The notes under the pieces were generated by a model, which saw only the letters and a list, made by a program, of their open reading frames with translations, was not told the origin of the DNA and ran no database searches. Source: an uncultured Prochlorococcus sp. (GTDB lineage: Bacteria > Cyanobacteriota > Cyanobacteriia > PCC-6307 > Cyanobiaceae). Taken from it: a DNA stretch of 64,000 bases. Positions 22,209-48,297 of the stretch are shown piece after piece. Location of the stretch: assembly GCA_902583265.1 (NCBI GenBank), contig CACHVD010000001.1:124001-188000 (forward strand), read 5' to 3'. The stretch's first letter is position 1. Each line of letters begins with the position of its first letter. The translations under genes were made by a program, and so were the position numbers.

Positions 22209-22230
22209 AAAAATGAGTTAAAGTTAGGCT

Positions 22231-22405
22231 ACTGGATCTTTGGTTAAGTTCTTCTTTATGTGCTCTGATCTGACTTTCTTTCGACGTGAGGAGACTGTCG
22301 TGATGCGGTAGTAAACCGATCTTGTAATCGGAAACGAAAGCCCACTTTGAATCCTCTTCTGGCTTTTCCAGGTCGATGCAGCAGAGAACTGACGGGGATC
22401 CGGTA
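22231..22405 (+). ncRNA. ssaA: 6S RNA
   Basis: A non-coding interval of about 175 nt directly after purK. It folds as a long rod: a closing stem ACTGGATC (22231-22238) with GATCCGGT (22397-22404), then AGTTCT (near 22247) with AGAACT (near 22385), then CTG-ATC-GAC with GTC-GAT-CAG, CTTTCG with CGAAAG, and a terminal hairpin CCGAT/ATCGG near 22316-22331. Length, rod shape, position after purK and an intrinsic terminator fit 6S RNA, the RNA polymerase-binding regulator. End points are estimates. Its 3' strand is duplicated at 27526. Confidence 0.78.
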
Positions 22406-22452
22406 AACCTTTCAAAAGCTTGTTATAGTAACAGTTTTTGAGAGGTCTTTTT
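22375..22452 (+). repeat. Direct repeat copy A: 6S RNA 3' end plus terminator
   Basis: The 78 bp from GATGCAGCAGAGAACT through the terminator T-tract recur at 27526-27605 with four substitutions. Copy A is the native 3' end of the 6S RNA gene. The copies enclose about 5.15 kb of small orphan genes. Confidence 0.9.
22407..22452 (+). terminator. Rho-independent terminator of the 6S RNA
   Basis: ACCTTTCAAAAGCTTGTTA can pair with TAACAGTTTTTGAGAGGT (about 17 of 19 positions, including G-T pairs), leaving a three-base loop, and is followed by CTTTTT. It is a long, strong intrinsic terminator directly behind the 6S RNA. Confidence 0.88.
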
Positions 22453-22466
22453 ATTTCAATTATTAA

Positions 22467-22478
22467 GGTGCCTTACCA
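22467..22478 (+). repeat. 12-bp repeat GGTGCCTTACCA, copy 1
   Basis: Exact 12-mer just behind the 6S terminator. The same word occurs at 22614-22625 and, just behind the duplicated terminator, at 27617-27628. Confidence 0.8.
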
Positions 22479-22613
22479 GCATGATTTACCAAATTAATAA
22501 ATTGAAATAAAGTAAGTTATAATTATACTTCTTATATAGCGACAGATCACATGAAGCTTGAATTAGAGATATTTGAATTGTTTTATAGCTTTTCCAAGAT
22601 GAAAAAACCTATG

Positions 22614-22625
22614 GGTGCCTTACCA
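22614..22625 (+). repeat. 12-bp repeat GGTGCCTTACCA, copy 2
   Basis: Second exact copy, directly followed by GTAAGGTAG, which can fold back on the TTACC part (CTTACC with GGTAAG) to make a small hairpin. It lies in a 250 bp stretch without a convincing gene; a 27-codon frame at 22551-22634 crosses it. Confidence 0.75.
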
Positions 22626-22705
22626 GTAAGGTAGCTCTAATTATATTGATAGCAACTATTTACAGCTAAAGTTTGATAAGGCATAGATATTTAACTCTTA
22701 AGATC

Positions 22706-22888
22706 TTAGCTTATCCAGGGCTTATTGAGAATGGATTTATTCAAATTAAAGGTCATTTCTTGAGCTCCTTTCATACATCCTCCTGATGGGTAGCTGATAA
22801 CTTTTTTTGATATCGCACCAATACCAATAGCTAATATTCCAATACCTAATATGGCTTTTGATCTATTATTCGCAAGAAGAGATTTCAT
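22706..22888 (-). CDS. Small hypothetical membrane protein
   Basis: A 60-residue protein with a hydrophobic helix at about 12-27 (KAILGIGILAIGIGAI) followed by a Lys/Cys-containing tail. Function unknown. No strong Shine-Dalgarno precedes the ATG. It is similar in style to the other one-helix proteins of the island. Confidence 0.5.
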   Translation of the reverse strand: MKSLLANNRSKAILGIGILAIGIGAISKKVISYPSGGCMKGAQEMTFNLNKSILNKPWIS

Positions 22889-22942
22889 TAGAAGTTTGTA
22901 AGTGCCTTTATGATAGAAGCGATGAATTTTGTTCTGTGGATT

Positions 22943-23170
22943 TCAAGCGGCTTCTGGGGCAAAGATCCTACTGTTTTCTCTCCAGTATCTACAGCCCTTA
23001 ATGAGATGATCTCCTTGAGGAATAAGCTTTTGATGAAACGGACAGGTAAGGATGGTGACACAAGAACTTGTCATGCTGTACCTGAAGTGATTGCAAGTAA
23101 TACATATCTTCCGCCGTTTTCTTGTTAATGTCTCTTCCTCTAAATAGTCCCATTCATGCCAGTCCTCCAT
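22943..23170 (-). CDS. Small cysteine-rich (zinc-ribbon-like) protein behind a LexA-type box
   Basis: A 75-residue protein with ICITCNHFRYS, then CVTILTCPFHQ and KGCRYW: five cysteines, including a CxxC, plus His, arranged like a small metal-binding domain. I recognise no named family. The ATG is 8 bp from a perfect LexA-type box (23179-23192) and 26 bp from the -10, so it should be damage-inducible if LexA is present. An opposite-strand frame at 22910-23128 is less convincing. Function unknown; a nucleic-acid-binding role would be speculation. Confidence 0.62.
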   Translation of the reverse strand: MEDWHEWDYLEEETLTRKRRKICITCNHFRYSMTSSCVTILTCPFHQKLIPQGDHLIKGCRYWRENSRIFAPEAA

Positions 23171-23178
23171 AATATTTT

Positions 23179-23226
23179 AGTACAAAAGTACTAATATTTA
23201 TAGCAATTAAATTAGCTAATAGTCAA
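23179..23226 (-). promoter_or_regulatory. Sigma70-type promoter with LexA-type operator
   Basis: Read on the minus strand: TTGACT (23226-23221), 18 bp, TATAAA (23202-23197), 4 bp, then AGTACTTTTGTACT (23192-23179), then ATG at 23170. The box fits the cyanobacterial LexA consensus RGTAC-N3-DGTWCB on the plus strand (AGTACAAAAGTACT). It controls the cysteine-rich gene. Confidence 0.75.
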
Positions 23227-23509
23227 CAATTAGTTCTCGATGGGGTGATGGGTGGGGGATCTCAAGGTTTAAAAGGTATATATTTGCCTTCAGACATTTT
23301 TCATTTTTTTTGATCTTTCTATAACTAGCGAAATAAGGGTCTGAATCATCTAAGTGGTAGAAAACTTCTAACTCTTCGGTGCTAGCCATTTTTAATCTAA
23401 TTTTTTCTGCCTTATGTAATAGAGAAATTGCTTCTTTCCTACCGATAGAATTACTAGCTCTCTCCATTAAAGACACGTACCTCTTAGCGAGGTGTTTGTG
23501 CTTGTTCAT
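23216..23509 (-). CDS. Hypothetical protein with a GRKE helical module
   Basis: A 97-residue soluble protein. Residues 13-41 (LMERASNSIGRKEAISLLHK, then AEKIRLKMAST) match the N-terminal module of the zinc protein at 36747-36998 and a truncated remnant at 27447-27535. The C-terminal half (EVFYHLDDSDPYFASYRKI) is unrelated to the others. Function unknown. The promoter at 23226 overlaps its 3' end, so the two minus-strand genes are probably separately transcribed. Confidence 0.6.
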   Translation of the reverse strand: MNKHKHLAKRYVSLMERASNSIGRKEAISLLHKAEKIRLKMASTEELEVFYHLDDSDPYFASYRKIKKNEKCLKANIYLLNLEIPHPSPHRELIVDY

Positions 23510-23757
23510 TTAAGTAGTTAATTATTATTAGGCTCTTAACCCGTTCCAAATCAACAATAATATATTCCCTTAAATAGCTGTAATTATTGCATGGTTCGGT
23601 TTAGCTAAATAATTTATAAATAGGGATTGGATGCGGGCTATTCATGCTGGACGGCAAATCCCTTATTAATTTACCTAGATTATTATTTTCTGAGTTTCAG
23701 TTGATTTCTCATATACATACTTTTTTGATGATTGTGATTTATATCTTGAATTTATCT
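23510..23757. other. Intergenic stretch without a supported gene
   Basis: I see no frame, tRNA or terminator here that I can support. It separates the GRKE protein gene from the gene remnant. Confidence 0.5.
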
Positions 23758-23955
23758 CTAATAATTCATGGTTGGCTTCAGTTGTATCCCTGCAACTGCC
23801 TCATGACAACCATGTATTAATCCTAGTACTGGCAATTCAATAACAGTCTCAAAATTTGGTCCTCTTTCCGTACTTAATAGTTCCTCAAACCGCCCTATAA
23901 ATTTCAAGAAGTTAGGAGGACAATATAGGTATAGATCTAGGAGGTCTAAATGAAA
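23758..23955 (-). pseudogene. Open frame without start, probable gene remnant
   Basis: Between the small genes lies a 66-codon minus-strand frame bounded by stops with no ATG. Its translation looks like genuine protein: LYLYCPPNFLKFIGRFEELL, then STERGPNFETVIELPVLGLI, then HGCHEAVAGIQLKP. The composition is unlike random AT-rich frames. I cannot name the family. It may be the tail of a deleted gene, or use TTG at the NFL position. The region also carries nested inverted repeats (23767-23774/23807-23814 and 23779-23784/23793-23798). Confidence 0.4.
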
Positions 23956-24132
23956 CTATTCAATCAATTCACTATCCTTCCAAGATACCTAAAAGCATTT
24001 AATTATGCTGGAAACAGAATGGAAGAAACAACAAAAAATCTTGATAGAGATAACCATTTATTTGAAGACTATTGGAAGAGGGAATGCAGAGAACATCCAA
24101 CTAATCAGCATTGCTTAGTCTATTGCGACTGA
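23950..24132 (+). CDS. Small hypothetical protein with C-terminal CxxHP...CLVYCD motif
   Basis: A 60-residue soluble protein beginning MKLFNQF, with a strong AGGAGG Shine-Dalgarno 5 bp before the ATG. The C-terminal third, YWKRECREHPTNQHCLVYCD, has three cysteines and a His and resembles a recurrent picocyanobacterial orphan family. Function unknown. A strong promoter for the next gene starts 17 bp after its stop. Confidence 0.7.
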   Translation: MKLFNQFTILPRYLKAFNYAGNRMEETTKNLDRDNHLFEDYWKRECREHPTNQHCLVYCD

Positions 24133-24149
24133 GAATTTCAACTTAAGGG

Positions 24150-24178
24150 TTGACAACTGAGTATAAATACTCTATAAA
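24150..24178 (+). promoter_or_regulatory. Strong sigma70-type promoter with palindromic spacer
   Basis: TTGACA (24150-24155), exactly 17 bp, TATAAA (24173-24178). The spacer contains the 14-bp perfect palindrome GAGTATAAATACTC (24159-24172), a natural operator position for a repressor or a DNA-distorting activator. It drives the structured leader and the DUF4278-like microprotein. Confidence 0.75.
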
Positions 24179-24185
24179 TAAAGTG

Positions 24186-24282
24186 TAGTAAATGCTACTA
24201 AATCGTCCGATCTACTATTAGATAGACCGCAGTACGACTCAAGCCATAGGACGGGGACTTGAGCAAGACCAGGAGCTGCATC
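24186..24282 (+). promoter_or_regulatory. Structured, pseudoknot-capable 5' leader
   Basis: About 97 nt between the predicted start of transcription and the ATG. Visible helices are TAGTA/TACTA (24186-24200), ATCTA/TAGAT (24210-24223) and CTCAAG/CTTGAG (24238-24263). The loop of the last contains GGACG (24249-24253), complementary to CGTCC (24204-24208), giving a pseudoknot. The ribosome site AGGAG (24271-24275) lies just beyond. It could be a riboswitch, an RNA-binding site, or an independent small RNA. Confidence 0.5.
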
Positions 24283-24384
24283 ATGGTAAATATGTATTTC
24301 AACGGCAAATCTTTCGTATATTGCAAGAGCCAAGAAGAGAAAACAATAAAGCTTACTTATAGAGGATCTAGTTACTTGAGATAA
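24283..24384 (+). CDS. DUF4278-like microprotein
   Basis: A 33-residue frame starting MVNMYFNGKSF and ending KTIKLTYRGSSYLR, which carries the LTYRGxxY core of DUF4278. AGGAG precedes the ATG by 7 bp. It is expressed from the TTGACA-17-TATAAA promoter behind a structured leader. Function unknown; the short length is near the minimum for that domain. Confidence 0.65.
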   Translation: MVNMYFNGKSFVYCKSQEEKTIKLTYRGSSYLR

Positions 24385-24440
24385 ATAAATCTCATATCTA
24401 TTAGATATTTAATAATCCATCTTTTTAGAGGTACTATGCT

Positions 24441-24575
24441 ATGAAATTTACTAATTCTCCTTTTGCCATACTCGACAAGAATATGAACGCATTAGATTAT
24501 CAAAAAAGAAATCTTATAAATGAGGACTCTTGGGGAAGGGAAAATGATAATCAAACAAAAGAAGATTTTAAATAA
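24441..24575 (+). CDS. Small hypothetical protein
   Basis: A 44-residue frame, MKFTNSPFAILDKNMNALDY to GREDNxxT-type polar tail ending EDFK. It is preceded by TTAGAGGTACTATGCT, a weak ribosome site (GAGG, 12 bp upstream). It follows the DUF4278-like gene by 56 bp and may share its transcript. No domain recognised. Confidence 0.45.
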   Translation: MKFTNSPFAILDKNMNALDYQKRNLINEDSWGRENDNQTKEDFK

Positions 24576-24608
24576 AGTACTTTTTGCCTTATGCAGATAT
24601 TACTTTGT

Positions 24609-24962
24609 TTATTTTGTTTTACAAAGAATATAAAGCCAGCCAAAGAAAGTAGCAAAAGCAATTATTGGAGCAATATTCTTATTAAATGGACTTAAAAATC
24701 TTTCTATCGAAAGTGGTACATATAAAATAACCAAATACCAATAGAGAGCAGATAGTAATCCAAACAATAAAGCCAGAAGAATATAAAAAGGTAAGATATA
24801 TAGTCTTCTTTTTTTAATTCTCTCCTCTGTAATATTTTCTGTTAAACCAATTCTTGACCAATAACCACCATTTAATTGAAGAAAAAACTTTAAAAATATT
24901 CCGTAAGTATTTATAAAAAATCTAGATAAAGCAAATAACGGTGAAATTATAAATCTTTGCAT
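24609..24962 (-). CDS. Hypothetical membrane protein
   Basis: A 117-residue protein with two clear membrane segments (about 52-78 and 93-113) and an aromatic N-terminal region. The gene starts within the stop codon of the upstream 62-aa membrane protein gene (1 bp overlap), so the two are translationally coupled. No family recognised. Confidence 0.6.
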   Translation of the reverse strand: MQRFIISPLFALSRFFINTYGIFLKFFLQLNGGYWSRIGLTENITEERIKKRRLYILPFYILLALLFGLLSALYWYLVILYVPLSIERFLSPFNKNIAPIIAFATFFGWLYILCKTK

Positions 24963-25150
24963 TAAAGCTTTAAAAATTTAATTAGTTCAGTATTAGAAGT
25001 CTTACTAATAGTATTATCTTTTTTATCTCTATATTTCGTTAGGAAAAATACCATTGAGCTAAAAATAATTAAAAATCCTATTAATGAAATTCGATAGAAA
25101 AAATCATCAGACATATCGAAAAAAGCTGATCTTTTATATTTGTTTCTCAT
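24962..25150 (-). CDS. Small hypothetical membrane protein
   Basis: A 62-residue protein with one membrane helix (ISLIGFLIIFSSMVFFL, about 21-37) and a Lys/Asp-rich tail. It is first gene of a coupled pair with 24609-24962. Just upstream of its ATG the minus strand reads TTGATAGTC, then a hairpin AGAGGG/CCCTCT (25158-25176), a layout repeated at 42708. Confidence 0.55.
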   Translation of the reverse strand: MRNKYKRSAFFDMSDDFFYRISLIGFLIIFSSMVFFLTKYRDKKDNTISKTSNTELIKFLKL

Positions 25151-25318
25151 ATAAAAAAGAGGGTTACTTACCCTCTAATGTAGAATGACTATCAATTAAA
25201 AGTAGCTTGATCTGAAAGTCGAATCATAAATATGACTTAATTAAATTCCGTAAATTATCAGCTACTCACAGTTGAGATTTTTATGTAACATAATAAGTTT
25301 ACATAAAGTAACAATTAA

Positions 25319-25513
25319 ATGAAAAGACTTATTCCATATATTGCCTTTGCTTGTTTAACTGGTTTCACAGCTACATCAGGGTTACCAGTTATGGCTGGAG
25401 CTTGTAGCAGTCACATGAATAAAAAAGCAGAGATCGAATGTGCTGAAAATGATAATGAGTGTCAAGCTGAAAAAGCTTCAAAGTTTGAATTAAAAGATTC
25501 TCTCAAGTCATAA
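25319..25513 (+). CDS. Small secreted cysteine-containing protein
   Basis: A 64-residue protein with a signal peptide (IPYIAFACLTGFTATSG, cleavage probably after VMA-G at residue 27). The mature part of about 37 residues has three cysteines and many acidic residues. It is probably periplasmic or lumenal. No family named. A short membrane peptide gene follows at 25518. Confidence 0.65.
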   Translation: MKRLIPYIAFACLTGFTATSGLPVMAGACSSHMNKKAEIECAENDNECQAEKASKFELKDSLKS

Positions 25514-25517
25514 AATT

Positions 25518-25622
25518 ATGACTCAAATCAATTTATTTATGAACTCTGCTCCAAGAGATTTGATTGAGTTCTTATTCTTTGCCGCTGTTGGTTTCATTGC
25601 AGGCACCTTTGGACTAATTTAG
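25518..25622 (+). CDS. Single-helix microprotein
   Basis: A 34-residue frame, MTQINLFMNSAPRDLIEFLF followed by FAAVGFIAGTFGLI. Its C-terminal half is a membrane helix with small-residue GxxxG-like spacing. It starts 4 bp after the preceding secreted-protein gene, suggesting coupling. Function unknown. Confidence 0.45.
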   Translation: MTQINLFMNSAPRDLIEFLFFAAVGFIAGTFGLI

Positions 25623-25734
25623 AAGTAGAATTTAAATTCTTTATTTCTTCTAACCTTTTCAAGTTTTTCTTTCTTTTATCTGGAAGCTTGCTTATAAAAT
25701 AATTTAATTAATCAAAATTAAAAATTTTTTTAAA

Positions 25735-25878
25735 CTACCTTTTATAAATAAATTTTTGAATGTCTACGAATAAGCTAGATTTTGATCTAAAAAATCCATT
25801 ATTTTTTAAATAAGATTTTCCTTTCTCTATATTTTCAATTCTTTTTTCATAAGAATTTTCATCTAAATCTTTTTGCAT
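25735..25878 (-). CDS. Small basic hypothetical protein
   Basis: A 47-residue frame beginning MQKDLDENSYEKRIENIEKG and ending DIQKFIYKR. It is charged and probably helical, with no known domain. No good Shine-Dalgarno is visible, so confidence is modest. The flanking 25623-25734 and 25879-26138 hold nothing further I can support. Confidence 0.4.
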   Translation of the reverse strand: MQKDLDENSYEKRIENIEKGKSYLKNNGFFRSKSSLFVDIQKFIYKR

Positions 25879-26138
25879 AAAAAAATAATTGGAATCTTAT
25901 TCTGAATAATACTCACAAAAAAGCGGTTACCTAATATACATAAAATTTCTTTTTTGAATTTCTTCTCATTCAAACTAAAGATCTAAAAAATAGTTTTATT
26001 CTTAAATTTCTAATATTAAATATGAAAAATAAATTAAAAATTAAATTTTTAGAAAAAAGATAATTTAGGTAGGAAACACTACATCAATTACAATTCAGGA
26101 ATAATTAGTTTGTAGATATAAATCTATTTCGAATAATT

Positions 26139-26267
26139 ATGGAATTCGCTAAAAAATTTATGACCGAAAAAGCTGAAAAGCTTAACGGTAAAGCAGCAAT
26201 GCTTGGAATGTTCGCTCTTATAGGGGCATACTATTTTACTGGTCAAATTGTTCCAGGTATTTTCTAA
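26139..26267 (+). CDS. hli: High-light-inducible (Hlip) protein
   Basis: A 42-residue single-helix member of the LHC superfamily: EKLNGKAAMLGMFALIGAYY is the chlorophyll-binding helix (Glu and Asn ligands, helix about residues 12-32), ending TGQIVPGIF. Hlips bind chlorophyll and carotenoid and dissipate energy near photosystem II under stress. Short copies like this are the typical island and phage-shared type. A hairpin with T-run follows at about 26291-26320. Confidence 0.9.
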   Translation: MEFAKKFMTEKAEKLNGKAAMLGMFALIGAYYFTGQIVPGIF

Positions 26268-26329
26268 GGAAGAGCTCATTAAAACTTTTAGGGGTTGGTA
26301 ATTTTCAGCCCCCTTTTTTTATTTAATGA

Positions 26330-26467
26330 TTAAGAATCTCTAGATATCTTGTTTTTCATATCTTCAATATTCTTGATTAATTTGTCTAACCACCCTGTAT
26401 TTTCTTCCGGTTTTAGATATGTAATTTTTGGTTGATTAATTTCAAGTGTCTCGAAATCTCCACTCAT
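26330..26467 (-). CDS. MSGD-family small acidic protein, copy 1
   Basis: A 45-residue protein, MSGDFETLEINQPKITYLKP then a polar helix ending KISRDS. AGGAGG lies 4 bp before the ATG. A paralog with the same first 15 residues (MSGD-Y-ETLEINQPKI) is encoded at 42856-43008. It lies beside an hli gene. Function unknown. Confidence 0.65.
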   Translation of the reverse strand: MSGDFETLEINQPKITYLKPEENTGWLDKLIKNIEDMKNKISRDS

Positions 26468-26694
26468 AAATCCTCCTTTGTATATTTGTTTAGCTACATC
26501 TTTGTTCTAATTGATTTGACTAAAACACTACGTATCTAATGTGTGCGGTTTGAAGAACATTTAGGTACGGAAAGAGGTATGTTGTTTTAGTAATTTAAAC
26601 CTATGGCTGAACTAGATTAATAATATGGTTGTTATGAATCAGTTGCATTGCTAAAACTGAAATAAACCCTAAACTCTAAATTGCATTTAATAAA

Positions 26695-26877
26695 ATGACT
26701 TACTACAGTTGCTTTGATCAAAAAGGAAATATTATTGCTCGTTGTCAGACTAAAGAAGATATAAATGTTCTAAAGAAAATGGGAAGACCAATAGTGGAAA
26801 TAAAAGAAATGAAAAAAGAGGAATCAGTTGTTTGTTCTTTAACTGGTAGTCCCTCCGATTACAACGAAGATTATTAA
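26695..26877 (+). CDS. Small hypothetical protein (CFDQKGN type)
   Basis: A 60-residue soluble protein, MTYYSCFDQKGNIIARCQTK, with three cysteines and an acidic tail. The compact start and balanced composition look like a genuine picocyanobacterial orphan gene. Function unknown. A 52-codon frame follows immediately. Confidence 0.6.
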   Translation: MTYYSCFDQKGNIIARCQTKEDINVLKKMGRPIVEIKEMKKEESVVCSLTGSPSDYNEDY

Positions 26878-26881
26878 GATT

Positions 26882-27040
26882 ATGAATCAAAGAACACTTC
26901 AATTAAATCAACATGGAAGATCAGTAGTTCTTTTGTTGGTTGCATTGAATAGCATTTTTACTTTCTTTTCTACTTTTGAAAAAGCATTAACTTATCGCGA
27001 GATAAAAATATTTAGGTATTTGTGGATTAACAGTCAATAA
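26882..27040 (+). CDS. Small membrane protein, tentative
   Basis: A 52-residue frame beginning MNQRTLQLNQHGRSVVLLLV with a hydrophobic stretch at about 15-31. It starts 4 bp after the preceding stop and ends before a strong terminator at 27057. The Arg/His-rich N-terminus followed by VLLLVALNS resembles other island one-helix proteins. Confidence 0.4.
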   Translation: MNQRTLQLNQHGRSVVLLLVALNSIFTFFSTFEKALTYREIKIFRYLWINSQ

Positions 27041-27056
27041 ATAAAATTTAAGTCAT

Positions 27057-27085
27057 AAAAAAAGACCTTTTTACAGGTCTTTTTT
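27057..27085. terminator. Bidirectional Rho-independent terminator
   Basis: AAAAAAGACCT and AGGTCTTTTTT form a perfect stem with a short loop, A-rich before and T-rich after, so it can stop transcription from either side. It ends the 26695-27040 transcription unit. Confidence 0.85.
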
Positions 27086-27446
27086 AATGGTGACGACAGA
27101 AAGGAGATCTATTTAATAATCAGATTAAGAATTTTCTTAGAAATTAGTTTTGTAAGTAAAAGTGATGACTCACTTCTTCATGCTTTACAAACGACTTTAT
27201 TTTTAAGATAGTTCAGAATTAATCCCGAAAGTTTAATTTCTGATCACTTAACTTTCTTTCCGGTAAGGATAGAGAAGTTAAATTACCTTGGTATTAAAGA
27301 CCATGGATTAGTGAAGATCTAGTTGGTCAACCTTGGTTGAGTCGATCACCAGAACTGTCGTATTATTAAAGTAATCGGTCTCAAATATTTTGCATGAATC
27401 CTTAAGATTGATTTAATCATGATTAATTCAATCTTTAATCAGAGGA
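27086..27446. other. Non-coding stretch with inverted repeats
   Basis: About 360 bp without a supported gene. TTAACTT (27248-27254) and AAGTTAA (27275-27281) form a hairpin, and a GTTGGTCAACC-like dyad lies near 27322. A small RNA here is possible but I cannot define one. Confidence 0.4.
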
Positions 27447-27535
27447 CTAACTCATCTCGTAGTTATCAAATTTAGTTTTTAACTTTGCTGCTGTATGTAT
27501 CAGCCTAACTGCTTCTTTCCTTCCAGATGCAGCAG
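27447..27535 (-). pseudogene. Truncated GRKE-module gene at the repeat junction
   Basis: The minus-strand frame reads AASGRKEAVRLIHTAAKLKT then KFDNYEMS and a TAG at 27447-27449. It aligns with the module in the proteins at 23216-23509 and 36747-36998. There is no start: the frame runs back into repeat copy B and a stop. It therefore looks like the 3' end of a gene cut by arrival of the 6S-derived repeat. Confidence 0.6.
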
Positions 27536-27605
27536 AGAACTAACGGGGATCCGGTTAACCTTTCAAAAGCTTGTTATTGCAACAGTTTTTGAGAGGTCTT
27601 TTTTT
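27526..27605 (+). repeat. Direct repeat copy B: partial 6S RNA 3' end plus terminator
   Basis: An 80 bp near-copy of 22375-22452 containing the 3' strand of the 6S closing stem and the entire terminator hairpin (27558-27605). The 5' portion of the 6S gene is missing, so it cannot make a 6S RNA. It is a likely attachment or duplication scar. Confidence 0.88.
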
Positions 27606-27616
27606 GGCTCTTAAGG

Positions 27617-27628
27617 GGTGCCTTACCA
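27617..27628 (+). repeat. 12-bp repeat GGTGCCTTACCA, copy 3
   Basis: Exact 12-mer about 11 bp behind the duplicated terminator, mirroring the position of copy 1 behind the native one. Confidence 0.8.
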
Positions 27629-27673: not shown

Positions 27674-27964
27674 TTAAGCAGCATCATATTCTTCCCTATC
27701 TTCAAGCTCTCTCATAAATCTTTTATCTAATAAGTAATTGTCTATAAGCTCTGCTGCCATCACTATCTCAGCAGCATTTTTAGATAGTTCTTGTGGATCT
27801 TTGTCTAATAAATAATTGTCTATAAGCTCTAGATTGTACTCGTTTTCTTTAATTGGTTTATCGCTGTCTAATAGCTTTCTTATTTGTGTAAATACAAGCT
27901 CTTGATCGTATCCACTTTCTCTAATTTCTTTCAACATTTCGTCTGGAATTTCCATAATCGTCAA
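27674..27964 (-). CDS. Hypothetical protein with internal ELIDNYLLDK duplication
   Basis: A 96-residue acidic protein. The decapeptide ELIDNYLLDK occurs twice (about residues 46-55 and 72-81) with near-identical DNA, a recent internal duplication. The remainder is helical and charged (MEIPDEMLKEIRESGYDQEL). Function unknown. It is the first gene beyond repeat copy B. Confidence 0.6.
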   Translation of the reverse strand: MTIMEIPDEMLKEIRESGYDQELVFTQIRKLLDSDKPIKENEYNLELIDNYLLDKDPQELSKNAAEIVMAAELIDNYLLDKRFMRELEDREEYDAA

Positions 27965-28176
27965 CCCCTATGTGATAGTTTTTTAGAGGAAAATAAGCCT
28001 AAATAAGCCAGTAATAGAGCTATTTAGAGCAAATTAGAGCCTATATACTCATACTTACGAACAAATAAGAAAAAAGCAAGAAAGGAATATAAGCAGTTAT
28101 TGGAAGAGGGTTGGAGGACGACAAGTATATTTAAAAGCTGTTTTTAAAAAAGTTTTAAATTGGGGGTTGTTTCATT

Positions 28177-28437
28177 TTATTCAACTGGAGTTAGTGAATA
28201 ACAAATATCTTTATAACCATTTTCTTTATCCCACTCTTTCATCTCTGGAGTACTTGTAGCAGCAGCAAATCCTTCTAAGTCTTTTACTTTAAGTATTAAG
28301 TGACTTTTATGATCATTTATCTTGATGAGCTCATATTCTTCGACATATTTATGTCCCTCCTCTTCGTGGAAATCAGCTACAAATTTATCGAAATCTTCAA
28401 AAGAACAATCAAAAGTAGAAACTATTAAGGTATTCAT
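28177..28437 (-). CDS. Hypothetical protein, ferredoxin-like fold candidate
   Basis: An 86-residue protein, MNTLIVSTFDCSFEDFDKFV, with alternating strand/helix pattern (beta-alpha-beta-beta-alpha) reminiscent of small dimeric alpha/beta-barrel domains, but no signature residues. Upstream on the minus strand is GATTGACAGTCGATCTA (28482-28466), a 17-mer also found at 42708. Confidence 0.6.
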   Translation of the reverse strand: MNTLIVSTFDCSFEDFDKFVADFHEEEGHKYVEEYELIKINDHKSHLILKVKDLEGFAAATSTPEMKEWDKENGYKDICYSLTPVE

Positions 28438-28526
28438 AAAAATGAGGGTTTTATCTCTTCAATTTTAGATCGACTGTCAATCATGTATTTAATTTGATGA
28501 GTTAAATAATTTGTTTACCAAAATAC

Positions 28527-28573
28527 TTGACGATCCATTTCTAATGTATTTATATTAGTAGTACACATGTATT
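28527..28573 (+). promoter_or_regulatory. Promoter with LexA-type operator, DUF1651 locus 1
   Basis: TTGACG (28527-28532), 18 bp, TATATT (28551-28556), then AGTACACATGTATT (28560-28573), which matches RGTAC-N3-DGTWCB except T for C. The operator covers the expected transcription start and ends 8 bp before the ATG at 28582. Confidence 0.68.
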
Positions 28574-28581
28574 ACTAATTA

Positions 28582-28881
28582 ATGACTTTAGGAGGAGCTA
28601 ATGTTTGGACTAATTTTTCTTACGGTTATCGTAATGAGTCCCCAAGTGGTTGGTTGCTTAGTCCAGACCGCAGCAGATTAATTTTATTTACAAAGAATAA
28701 AAAATCTCCAAGAAATAGTATGAGAATTTTTGCTCATACATATTATGCAAATGATTTTGGTGAGCCAATGGCAATTAAATCATCCACTCAAATGTATTTG
28801 GATAATGCTTGGGATAAATGGCATGACCTTCAATTAGAAGGTTGGACTTTTGAAGAACTTGAATTACCTGAATCAGTATGA
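28582..28881 (+). CDS. DUF1651-family protein 1
   Basis: A 99-residue soluble protein. The DUF1651 core runs from PSGWLLSPDRSRLILF (about 21-36) through FGEPMAIKS and AWDKWHDLQLEGW. The first 20 residues are poorly conserved with the paralog at 31027, whereas an overlapping +1 frame there is better conserved. It has almost no leader and no Shine-Dalgarno before its ATG. It overlaps the next gene by 4 bp (ATGA), in a three-gene chain ending at 29160. Function unknown; damage-inducible if the LexA box is real. Confidence 0.7.
   Translation: MTLGGANVWTNFSYGYRNESPSGWLLSPDRSRLILFTKNKKSPRNSMRIFAHTYYANDFGEPMAIKSSTQMYLDNAWDKWHDLQLEGWTFEELELPESV
28601..28681 (+). CDS. Nested +1-frame hydrophobic peptide 1
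   Basis: A 26-codon frame inside the DUF1651 gene: MFGLIFLTVIVMSPQVVGCL and a short tail. AGGAGG (28590-28595) lies 5 bp before its ATG, a better start context than the host gene has. It is one hydrophobic helix with a GC that resembles a lipobox. The paralogous locus encodes a matching 26-residue peptide at 31046-31126. Not previously known to me. Confidence 0.5.
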   Translation: MFGLIFLTVIVMSPQVVGCLVQTAAD

Positions 28882-29170: not shown

Positions 29171-29284
29171 TTATTTAGTTTTTATTTTTTTCTTAATTCT
29201 CAGGAAACCGTAAGTTGCAAAGCCAACCAAAAACATATCTAAGTAAATATGCCAAGTAGGAAAAATCTGGTGTATTAATTCCAT
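29171..29284 (-). CDS. Single-helix small protein
   Basis: A 37-residue frame, MELIHQIFPTWHIYLDMFLV then GFATYGFLRIKKKIKTK: one membrane helix and a basic tail. Its start overlaps the stop of the ligase-domain gene by 1 bp, so it is likely the third gene of that operon. Confidence 0.5.
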   Translation of the reverse strand: MELIHQIFPTWHIYLDMFLVGFATYGFLRIKKKIKTK

Positions 29285-30033
29285 TAACGTTTTATTGCCA
29301 CTTGCCAATAAGGATAATCTAAATTTGATTTTTCTCTAATCAATTGTAATTTTCTAGAATTTATTTTTACTACTATTCCATCTGTTGGATATTTACTAAA
29401 AAGCTTCCCTTCAAGCCATTGTTTTCTAAATACTTCAACTTGGCTCGTAAAGTTGCATGAAATATCCTGAGGGATCGTGAAGCCAAGCTTTGAAAGACTT
29501 TTTTTGGACTCATATTGGTTAAGTGTTGAATTAAGTATTTGAAATGCGCAGAAGCTAAGACTTTCAGAAAATCCTTCTTTAGCTCTTAGAAATCCAGAAG
29601 CGATTCTCTGGGAGATATTTGGACTTTGGTTGGGTGCATATAATTCGCCTCTAACTTGAAGAACCCCTCGTAAAGGGAGATAATTGGGAATGTCTTGGAC
29701 TTTAATAAGTTTACTAGTAACGTCCGCTCCTTTTCTTGAAATTGCTTTCTCCAAGGTTCCATCCCTATATTGCAAAGCAACGGCACAACCATCAATTTTT
29801 GGTTCAATTAATAATCTGGTATCTACTAATAATCCTTTCAAAAATTCATCTATTGAATCCTTTTCTAATGAAGGTAAAACTAGTTTATTTTTCTTTTTAA
29901 AGTAATCACAATTAGGGTTTGTTCTTAATAAATTTTTTTCAAGTTGGTCGAATTGCTTATCAGAGATTAAAGCATTACCATTTCTGTAATTATCGTCATA
30001 CCATTCAATTCGTTCTTCTAAATAAGTCTTCAT
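29284..30033 (-). CDS. Stand-alone NAD+-dependent DNA ligase adenylation domain
   Basis: A 249-residue protein matching the N-terminal part of LigA. Motif I EPKIDG carries the nucleotidyl-accepting Lys (about residue 78); VRGELYAP is motif III (about 126-133); TDGIVVKIN is motif IV (near 217-225); YWQVAIKR is motif V at the very C-terminus. An upstream IDWYDxxY-like segment (RIEWYDDNYRNGN, 8-20) is a shortened Ia domain for NAD+ binding. The OB, zinc, HhH and BRCT domains of full LigA (about 670 aa) are absent. It may self-adenylate or act as a nucleotidyltransferase; nick sealing without an OB domain is doubtful. Confidence 0.8.
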   Translation of the reverse strand: MKTYLEERIEWYDDNYRNGNALISDKQFDQLEKNLLRTNPNCDYFKKKNKLVLPSLEKDSIDEFLKGLLVDTRLLIEPKIDGCAVALQYRDGTLEKAISRKGADVTSKLIKVQDIPNYLPLRGVLQVRGELYAPNQSPNISQRIASGFLRAKEGFSESLSFCAFQILNSTLNQYESKKSLSKLGFTIPQDISCNFTSQVEVFRKQWLEGKLFSKYPTDGIVVKINSRKLQLIREKSNLDYPYWQVAIKR

Positions 30034-31026: not shown

Positions 31027-31317
31027 ATGACTTCAGGAGTTGCTAATGTTCGGACTTATTTTTATCGTGGCAGCCTTGCTGACCCCCCAACTGGCTGGTT
31101 GTTTAACAAAAAAAGTGGTTTATTAATTTTCTTTGAGAGTTATAAGAAGTCTGTATCTAATAACTTAAAAGTATATACTCACCTTTTCTATGCAAATGAA
31201 TTAGGTGAACCAGCCCAAATTAAAAATTCAAGACTTCATTCTATTGAGTGTGCTTCTGAAACATGGAATGAATTAATTTCAGGAGGTTGGCAAAATGTTA
31301 CTAATAAATTTCAGTAA
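31027..31317 (+). CDS. DUF1651-family protein 2
   Basis: A 96-residue paralog of 28582-28881, with PTGWLFNKKSGLLIFF (about 20-35), YANELGEPAQIKNS and WNELISGGW matching the DUF1651 core. The first 18 residues diverge from the paralog except where the nested +1 frame is conserved. Its 3' end overlaps the next gene by 23 bp. Confidence 0.7.
   Translation: MTSGVANVRTYFYRGSLADPPTGWLFNKKSGLLIFFESYKKSVSNNLKVYTHLFYANELGEPAQIKNSRLHSIECASETWNELISGGWQNVTNKFQ
31046..31126 (+). CDS. Nested +1-frame hydrophobic peptide 2
   Basis: A 26-codon frame, MFGLIFIVAALLTPQLAGCL and a basic tail, with AGGAG (31035-31039) 6 bp before its ATG. Identical length and stop position to the peptide at 28601-28681, sharing MFGLIF, PQ and GCL. 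It is one hydrophobic helix. Confidence 0.5.
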   Translation: MFGLIFIVAALLTPQLAGCLTKKVVY

Positions 31318-37287: not shown

Positions 37288-37527
37288 TCAACCAGCTTTT
37301 TTAAGGTTTTTTACTAAAAAATCATTTTCATTAGTAAGTACTTCGAGATTAGATTTTTTCAATACTTCTTTGGCTTCTGGAATTAAAATTTTTTTTGTCT
37401 TATTTGTTTTCATAAAACTTAAAATTAAATTCTTAAACGACAGCAAAATCATAGTGATCCCCAAAAAAAATTGTGGATAGTTTTTCTTAAAAAAAGATAA
37501 TATTTTATTTTGCACATAGAAATTCAA
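37288..37527 (-). CDS. Small membrane protein
   Basis: A 79-residue protein with a hydrophobic stretch at about 20-38 (QFFLGITMILLSFKNLILSF) and a charged C-terminal half ending NLKKAG. No domain recognised. One of three DnaA-box-like 9-mers lies inside its 5' part. Confidence 0.48.
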   Translation of the reverse strand: MNFYVQNKILSFFKKNYPQFFLGITMILLSFKNLILSFMKTNKTKKILIPEAKEVLKKSNLEVLTNENDFLVKNLKKAG

Positions 37528-37582
37528 ATTTAATCAACATATTGTGGAAAACCCTGTTGAAAAACTCTTAAAAAGTGGATAA
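37472..37582 (+). other. Cluster of three DnaA-box-like 9-mers
   Basis: TGTGGATAG (37472-37480), TGTGGAAAA (37543-37551) and AGTGGATAA (37574-37582), each one mismatch from TGTGGATAA, all in the same orientation within 111 bp. No origin-associated gene is nearby. The following 37583-37944 is AT-rich and otherwise empty to my eye. Confidence 0.35.
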
Positions 37583-37944
37583 CTCTTCGGGAGCATTATC
37601 AAAACTAGCTTTTCTAGAAAACTTTTTAAGTATTAATACTTCATCAAAAAAAACTAAATATAGTTTAAAAAGTCACAAAATCTCTTGTCATAACAGTGGG
37701 ATCATTACTTTTTAAAAAAGATAAAATATCTATTTAAGAAGCTCATGTTGATAGAAAATTTAAAGAGTTTTTTCCTCGTGATGTATCAATTTGAAAATTA
37801 AGGTGAAGAATAATCAATCTAAACTTGAAATTTTTAATTTTTGCCTTATGTAATCAAAAAATTGTTTAATTCGGTTTTCTCTATGGAAATATTTCTCAAA
37901 CCTGAAATTAACCAAATAGATTAAAAGCACTTTAGAAAACTCAA

Positions 37945-48088: not shown

Positions 48089-48297
48089 GATCTTATGCAG
48101 TTAATGAGAATCCCGTTCCCTATTCTCATATCATGCGTCCAAATAAATTGGATGAACGTCGAAAATAACCTAACATTCGAAAAACAAGTTTGGATTTAAG
48201 ATATATTTAAGAAATATTTAAAAGTAGCACTTAATAAAATAATTTTAAATAGAAAGTTTATCTAGAGGTAAATATTTTCGACCATGATCATGTGATG

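Follow-up and report, generated by a model that had tools for sequence, protein, structure and literature searches.

A probable decayed island at the 6S RNA gene

The DNA analysed here is a stretch of 64,000 nucleotides from an uncultured Prochlorococcus sp. (called the window; positions are counted from its first letter), and it carries what are very probably the decayed remains of an integrative island that inserted into the 3' end of the gene for 6S RNA, the RNA that binds RNA polymerase. The end of the 6S gene and its terminator occur twice in the window as a direct repeat (copies A and B, Table 1) of 78 nt with 95% identity and a spacing of 5151. The repeat begins 36 nt before the end of the match to the 6S family RF00013 and extends through the terminator. 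The two copies differ by four substitutions, at 22391, 22405, 22427 and 22429 in the numbering of copy A, and beyond the 78 nt a looser similarity continues (87.7% over about 106 nt) because the word GGTGCCTTACCA comes after both copies. In the whole assembly of 1.04 Mb, which is in 30 contigs and 64% complete, the 6S tail was found at two places only, with E values of 4.2e-80 and 1.6e-29. The enclosed open reading frames (ORFs) are small and none of those that were scanned reached the Pfam cut-off, and integrase searches gave no match in the assembly. An earlier note on this DNA had claimed two direct repeats with four substitutions, small enclosed genes and no recombinase in the interval, and all of this was borne out.

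The mechanism that we propose is as follows. A circular element would have carried the last part of 6S and a terminator of its own, flanked by arm sites for the integrase (iterons), and recombination between this attachment site (attP) and the corresponding end of 6S in the host would have been carried out by a tyrosine integrase of the element. The copy brought by the element would have completed the 6S gene and is now copy A, while the original 6S end with the host terminator would have been displaced to the far side as copy B. The integrase and the arm beside copy B would later have been deleted in one step in the window, which would leave the window island stuck, and the repeated use of the 6S site would give rise to tandem arrays. 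The observations behind this mechanism come from comparing sequences, and they are the unoccupied sites, the exchanged 3' ends, the linkage of integrase and 6S end, the matching arm words and the deletion relative to genome G568; from them we infer a circular form, excision and transfer between cells.

Unoccupied sites and the exchange of 6S ends

When the 266 genomes of the genus were searched with the 6S tail, a match (E up to 0.01) was found in 215 of them and in 83 of the 87 good-quality ones. Stretches were fetched from part of the matching genomes and 109 loci with a full-length 6S were tabulated; the choice was non-random because it favoured two-copy genomes, close relatives and good assemblies, and the counts of occupied and unoccupied loci are to be read as counts in this sample. 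The native flanking gene, which was assigned to DUF1651 by Pfam and lies at 28582 in the window, was on the stretch in 92 of the 109 loci. The site was unoccupied in 57 of these 92, where the DUF1651 gene starts 139 to 188 nt behind 6S, and occupied in the other 35, where it lies 232 nt to 15.5 kb behind 6S. When 20 loci of relatives, both occupied and unoccupied, were tested with Rfam, a complete 6S RNA was found in all 20 (81.5 to 96.5 bits). Thus, insertions leave the whole gene, though its last nucleotides and the terminator change. The terminators behind 6S vary much among strains, and they go with the island ends.

Two near relatives, G610 and G361, do not have the 5.15 kb. In both of them purK and 6S are directly followed by the two genes that stand behind copy B in the window: the protein of the 27674 ORF is 100% identical in G610 and 99% in G361, and that of the 28177 ORF is 99% and 95% identical, respectively. 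The 6S end of these two genomes has the letter of copy A at 22391 and the letters of copy B at 22405, 22427 and 22429. This is the hybrid that is expected if copy B keeps the right half of the host and the right half of copy A was brought in by the element. The crossover then most likely took place between 22391 and 22405, if the A at 27542 predates integration; a safer interval, for which the letter at 27542 need not have been present at integration, would be 22369-22404. The earlier note had asked, among other things, for empty sites in this region, and it would have been refuted by a copy B that did not fit an insertion in strains without the 5 kb. Empty sites are seen in the 57 unoccupied loci, and G610 and G361 bear out the insertion.

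Integrase-bearing islands at the same site

In genome G026 (AG-388-F11) the complete 6S gene is followed by 15.2 kb of other genes, an integrase gene, a 6S 3' fragment and then the native flank. The integrase is a tyrosine integrase of 432 aa that is encoded on the strand opposite to 6S. The layout of the intact islands in relatives is a complete 6S, a terminator, about four iterons of 10 bp, cargo, the tyrosine integrase on the opposite strand and the displaced 6S end. Relatives of the G026 integrase were found in 18 of the 266 genomes, several being pieces or remote, and a profile search also gave 18. Further integrase-bearing strains are AG-402-K22, AG-418-D13, AG-402-K16, AG-426-D16, AG-349-I11 (G568, whose integrase has 435 aa), AG-686-M10, AG-363-C20 and MIT 9314, where the match covers residues 1-249 only. 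Ten copies in the genus have their start intact, and in every one of them a 6S-type 3' segment lies 5' of the integrase start; in G442 this segment is of the low-light 6S type, with 91% identity to G022 6S across 35 nt. In all seven aligned copies the residues R, K, H, R, H and Y are kept at the positions that we take to be those of the active site, and PF00589 matched the integrases of two sets (3 of 3 and 8 of 8), one in each set being just below the curated cut-off. An AlphaFold model of the integrase had a mean pLDDT of 45 and was not used. Tandem arrays are suggested in G509, G515, G479, G176 and G204. That integrase-bearing relatives occupy the same purK-6S region, taken together with the unoccupied sites, supports the 6S RNA gene as the target, which is how the earlier note had read it.

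The cargo of these islands includes a phosphonate-type ABC transporter that is common to the islands of AG-388-F11 and MIT 9314, and also a 1234-aa TPR protein, a 1224-aa SUFU-domain protein (in the 6S island of G429, L111:4544-8218), a GIY-YIG endonuclease and a PD-(D/E)XK nuclease. When ten proteins of the relatives were scanned against PHROG, the families found were integrase, homing endonuclease and transcriptional regulator, with no structural family. Anti-phage defence as the cargo was considered and rejected, since PADLOC, run on ten proteins, named nothing but nucleases (Cas4, DruK and a Cas4-like one), all of them for one protein. A phage origin was likewise rejected, as no similar DNA was found in 50,697 phage records in distant mode at an E value of 1e-5; relatives of the integrase were also not found in the viral contigs of IMG/VR, where one protein served as the query and only close relatives would have been picked up. 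Transfer RNA (tRNA) or transfer-messenger RNA (tmRNA) genes as the true target were rejected because ARAGORN found none in the window, in locus L119, in seven loci and in twelve loci round the more distant integrases.

Iterons behind 6S and at the integrase start

Many occupied sites have words of 10 bp downstream of the 6S terminator, up to four of them (six in G010), at a spacing of 12 to 13 bp, and three types of word occur in the genus, TGCAGGACCA, TGCCTTACCA and TGTCCTACCA. With one mismatch allowed, one or more iterons were found in none of the 57 unoccupied loci and in 24 of the 35 occupied ones, 19 of which had two or more. Two or more were also found in 13 of the 17 loci whose stretch does not include the flanking gene. 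In 4000 random stretches there were 57 with one or more and 12 with two or more. Similar words are found at the integrase start: two TGCAGGACCA stand there in eight genes of type 1 (in G593 one of the two is mismatched), one TGCCTTACCA in G568 and two GGTCCTACCA in G442. Five genomes with both arms on one contig (G026, G509, G593, G380 and G268) have TGCAGGACCA in both, and for TGCCTTACCA the two arms are linked through G568 and a mini-element in G578. This remnant is about 240 bp long and has a left end of the window type, and its right end matches the arm of G568 at 77.5% over 80 nt and that of G026 over 12 nt only. The G578 stretch (L122:2043-2380) is a minimal element in which both ends of a 6S island are kept and everything between them is deleted. 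For the third type, TGTCCTACCA, no pair with both arms was found in the genus, and G145, which belongs to another genus, carries it in both arms. The left end in the window belongs to the TGCCTTACCA type and has two iterons, one intact and the other degenerate, where G597, G531, G488 and G512 have four. We take the iterons to be putative binding sites of the integrase.

Loss of the integrase

Five ORFs of the window, from 24609 to 26877, stand in the same order in G568, where three extra genes are found among them, and there the integrase follows. From 27000 to 27526 the window follows G568 at 97.7% over 527 nt and then jumps to the 6S core. The stretch of G568 that is skipped in the window is about 1.5 kb and comprises the whole integrase gene and the P arm. 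The window is therefore called a remnant of a tyrosine-integrase island and not an intact member, because its own integrase is deleted relative to G568, and the guess of the earlier note that the element is decayed was right. G434, G531 and G566 also do not have the integrase, and their deletion endpoints are different. In G568 coordinates the left endpoints are at about 7735 in G434, 7753 in G531, 7709 in G566 and 7802 in the window, and on the right the deletions of the window and G434 stop at the core and those of G531 and G566 extend past the 6S fragment. Judged by these differing endpoints, the integrase was lost at least three times and probably four. At 27526 in the window and in G434 (L107:6784) different left endpoints are joined to the same right core letters (GATGCA). 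This shared endpoint hints at deletions made by the integrase itself with a cryptic partner site.

Occurrence in the family outside the genus

Of 300 genomes in the family, 39 were matched by a profile built from seven integrases, with many of the hits being weak ones to other proteins. Long matches, that is over 300 positions, numbered 13 outside the genus, and 9 of these are at 6S (G204, G214 on contig 14, G328, G145, G168, G223, G151, G255 and G082). G204 was placed there through its 6S-like segment, which is followed by four words of the TGCAGAACCA type. Ten genomes have both the integrase and 6S, and in eight of them, from seven genera, the integrase lies 4.3-38.9 kb downstream of 6S and is encoded on the other strand. 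In seven of these eight a second 6S end of 47 to 75 nt, 81 to 100% identical, adjoins the integrase start; in the eighth, G168, the contig stops at the integrase. G080, which is of yet another genus, has a short integrase piece whose start adjoins a 6S-like segment with 85% identity to G145 6S across 46 nt. When the two arms of nine elements were compared, the own pairs had 15, 27, 11, 31, 20, 11, 29, 5 and 19 ten-mers in common, and 72 wrong pairings had a mean of 1.8. In the class sample one of 194 genomes matched at 1e-30, and this was G160, which is of the same family and off 6S; no family limit is claimed from it.

Weighing of the alternatives

Several observations weigh against an integrase island at 6S and are collected here. 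The window itself has neither the integrase (0 matches, assembly-wide) nor the P arm. Within the genus, no 6S end was seen on the stretches fetched for two broken integrase pieces (G390 contig 4 and G482) or for two remote recombinases (G416 and G437), though the piece in G482 still lies 3.7 kb behind its own 6S gene on the opposite strand, and the assemblies of G442, G568 and G204 have no 6S gene. Outside the genus 4 of the 13 long matches are off 6S, with no 6S end on the fetched stretches; G160 accounts for two of these, G226 for one and contig 2 of G214 for the fourth. An iteron at one mismatch is missing in 11 of the 35 occupied loci, and the iteron count describes rather than tests because the words were read from some of the counted loci. 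Among the wrong arm pairs 13 of 72 reach three or more common ten-mers, and the arms of G255, which is the element with the value of 5, do not match, its common words not being iterons. Finally, recent transfer was looked for by comparing the integrase identity with that of purK, and the result was mixed, with no clear sign of it and no conclusion to be drawn.

An improbable alternative, and the one that stands up best, is that this is a nonautonomous element or a phage satellite that is moved in trans by the integrase of another island, so that the state without integrase is its normal one. Such islands with the same gene set do recur (G434, G531 and G566), and few genomes have an integrase match (18 of 266, including some with pieces only) where occupied sites are common (35 of 92, in the non-random sample). 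What speaks against it is that the differing deletion endpoints of the window, G434, G531 and G566 look like the repeated decay of one autonomous type, that the window has lost iterons and the P arm, which trans-mobilisation would need, and that no phage structural family was found among the ten proteins tested. Less likely still is a homologous or illegitimate duplication of the 6S end without a recombinase. No recombinase is in the window, and exchange between islands does occur, as the same gene set is found with different left ends in G434 and in the window; against this, only the last part of 6S is repeated, from about the same point in several genera, the repeated end adjoins the integrase in intact cases, and the lost integrase of the window was mapped as a deletion relative to G568. 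The weakest alternative, that the 6S terminator is a frequently copied cassette that is shuffled about, can draw on the large differences between strains in the terminators behind 6S, on a stray 6S-tail piece in G429 that is 613 kb away and on weak second matches in other genomes, but it is hardly credible when there are only two copies in the window's assembly, the copied part includes 6S sequence and the terminators go with the island ends.

Terminator shuffling was the explanation that the earlier note had set against its own reading, and it was not supported, since the second 6S ends that were examined lie in the 6S island, save for stray pieces in G429 and in G432, the latter on a short contig; the weak second matches were only partly examined. 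The stray piece of G429 (L112:6707-6960; G429:C1:1284706 onward) consists of the 6S tail, TGCCTTACCA words and the left leader of the element. It resembles an insertion at a secondary, core-like site because in other genomes the left flank without the insert reads CCATGTCATGC. By this comparison the stray tail may be such a secondary insertion with a mosaic on its right side. Genes for tRNA-Thr are near the sites that correspond to its left flank and not near the 6S islands.

The decayed integrative island thus remains the reading that we hold with high confidence. A wider proposal, which we consider doubtful, is that across the whole family of picocyanobacteria a clade of tyrosine integrases has the 6S gene as its dedicated site of integration, and that the insertions couple the transcription of element and host, the island tuning or sensing 6S levels (for example by excision timed to the growth state) until the host fixes the island in place through deletion of the integrase. 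A coupling of this kind is conceived because each insertion swaps the whole terminator and the last nucleotides of 6S, which is a global regulator of RNA polymerase.

Features of the window island and its surroundings

The features of the island are listed in Table 1.

Table 1. Features of the 6S island in the window, in order of position.
Feature	Position	Strand	Basis or remark
6S RNA gene, intact; 3' end is the probable integration target	22226..22410	+	RF00013, 89.5 bits, model 1-187 (Rfam scan of the window)
Copy A: last 36 nt of 6S and terminator; part right of the crossover probably element-derived	22375..22452	+	Repeat and relatives
Most likely crossover interval (ACGGGGATCCGGT)	22392..22404	+	Comparison with G610 and G361; wider, safer interval 22369-22404
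Probable body of the decayed element, between copies A and B	22453..27525	.	
Putative P' arm: intact iteron TGCCTTACCA at 22469 and degenerate one at 22482	22469..22491	+	
Additional TGCCTTACCA word, conserved left-end leader	22616..22625	+	
60-aa ORF, recurrent in 6S islands	22706..22888	-	Matches in G509, G597, G531, G488, G512, G176, G566 and others
75-aa ORF, found repeatedly in 6S islands; a diverged relative lies beyond the island	22943..23170	-	
97-aa ORF, recurrent in 6S islands	23216..23509	-	
Glutamine-II riboswitch aptamer	24201..24263	+	RF01704, 59.5 bits
33-aa ORF behind the Glutamine-II riboswitch, no Pfam match	24283-24384		
Two adjoining small ORFs, 117 and 62 aa	24609..25150	-	Present also in the G568 island
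64-aa ORF	25319..25513	+	Order as in G568, G434, G531 and G566
42-aa ORF, presumably Hli-like; no Pfam match above cut-off	26139..26267	+	Name from a motif
60-aa ORF; in G568 the last one before the integrase	26695..26877	+	
Deletion joint: G568-like sequence stops, 6S core starts	27525..27527	.	
Copy B: probable displaced original host 6S 3' end and host terminator	27526..27603	+	
TGCCTTACCA word behind copy B, probably left by an older element	27619..27628	+	
Two ORFs (96 and 86 aa), probably what is left of an older element	27674..28437	-	In G610 and G361 too
Native flank again from about this point; the DUF1651 gene follows at 28582	28501..28581	.	

A Glutamine-II riboswitch is also present in the matching place of the G568 island (L120:14306-14368), and a second aptamer of this family is found in the window outside the element at 48104-48161. 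Within the element there is an inverted repeat of 33 nt, 23861-23893 and 26545-26577, which is 88% complementary with its halves 2.65 kb apart. On the native side the DUF1651 protein (28582-28881) has a relative at 31027-31317 that is 40% identical to it over 88 residues. Between these two a stand-alone protein of 249 aa with the adenylation domain of NAD-dependent DNA ligase (PF01653) is encoded at 29284-30033, and many loci across the genus have this protein next to their 6S island. The small RNA Yfr17 was found at 37434-37698 with 111 bits.

Relation to known systems

The islands of Prochlorococcus that are known as tycheposons are reportedly the subject of the work of Hackl et al. 2023. 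The island described here is like them in that it belongs to islands of Prochlorococcus which have a tyrosine recombinase, carry nutrient cargo (here the phosphonate-type ABC transporter of AG-388-F11 and MIT 9314) and sit at an RNA gene. A tyrosine recombinase, which may or may not be of the tycheposon type, is present in the relatives of the window. It is unlike them in its target: the part of the literature that we consulted gives seven tRNA genes as the sites of tycheposons (PMC10872708), whereas the target here is 6S RNA, and no tRNA gene was found in the window or in the scanned integrase loci.

In attP of the lambda type the core stands between two arms that carry the arm sites. The 6S elements are like this in that their core lies between arms of repeated short words, some of which are by the start of the integrase gene, and they are unlike it in that the words, which are putative binding sites, differ between element types and, within one element, are mostly the same in both arms.

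The sites of integrases have been classed as tRNA or tmRNA genes, protein-coding genes or intergenic regions (PMC12424338), and in this scheme the 6S site would count as intergenic. With islands in tRNA and tmRNA genes (the Islander/TIGER class, PMC12424338) the 6S islands share an integrase adjacent to one end, a restored 3' end of the gene, a displaced fragment at the far end and tandem arrays, and they differ from them in that the target is a regulatory RNA. The proposed mechanism is a known one, and the target gene, which recurs through one family, would be new. No report of 6S as an integration target was among the literature matches listed, which were mostly without subscription journals, preprints and the main tycheposon paper, so that absence from print is not established by them.

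Site-specific islands are classically found in tRNA and tmRNA genes, and the recurrent use of 6S in eight genera of one family widens this rule beyond the RNAs of translation and provides a case in which to test what makes integrases choose RNA genes. In surveys that take account of tRNA and tmRNA genes only, the 6S islands would be filed as intergenic, and therefore others may be hidden. With about eight element types, each marked by an arm word of its own, there is a natural data set on the arm-site specificity of integrases, and the differing integrase deletions at one site, at least three of them, show how such islands become fixed. Since the 6S site holds accessory genes, some of them nutrient genes, in an abundant phototroph of the ocean, it explains one recurrent source of the differences between strains.

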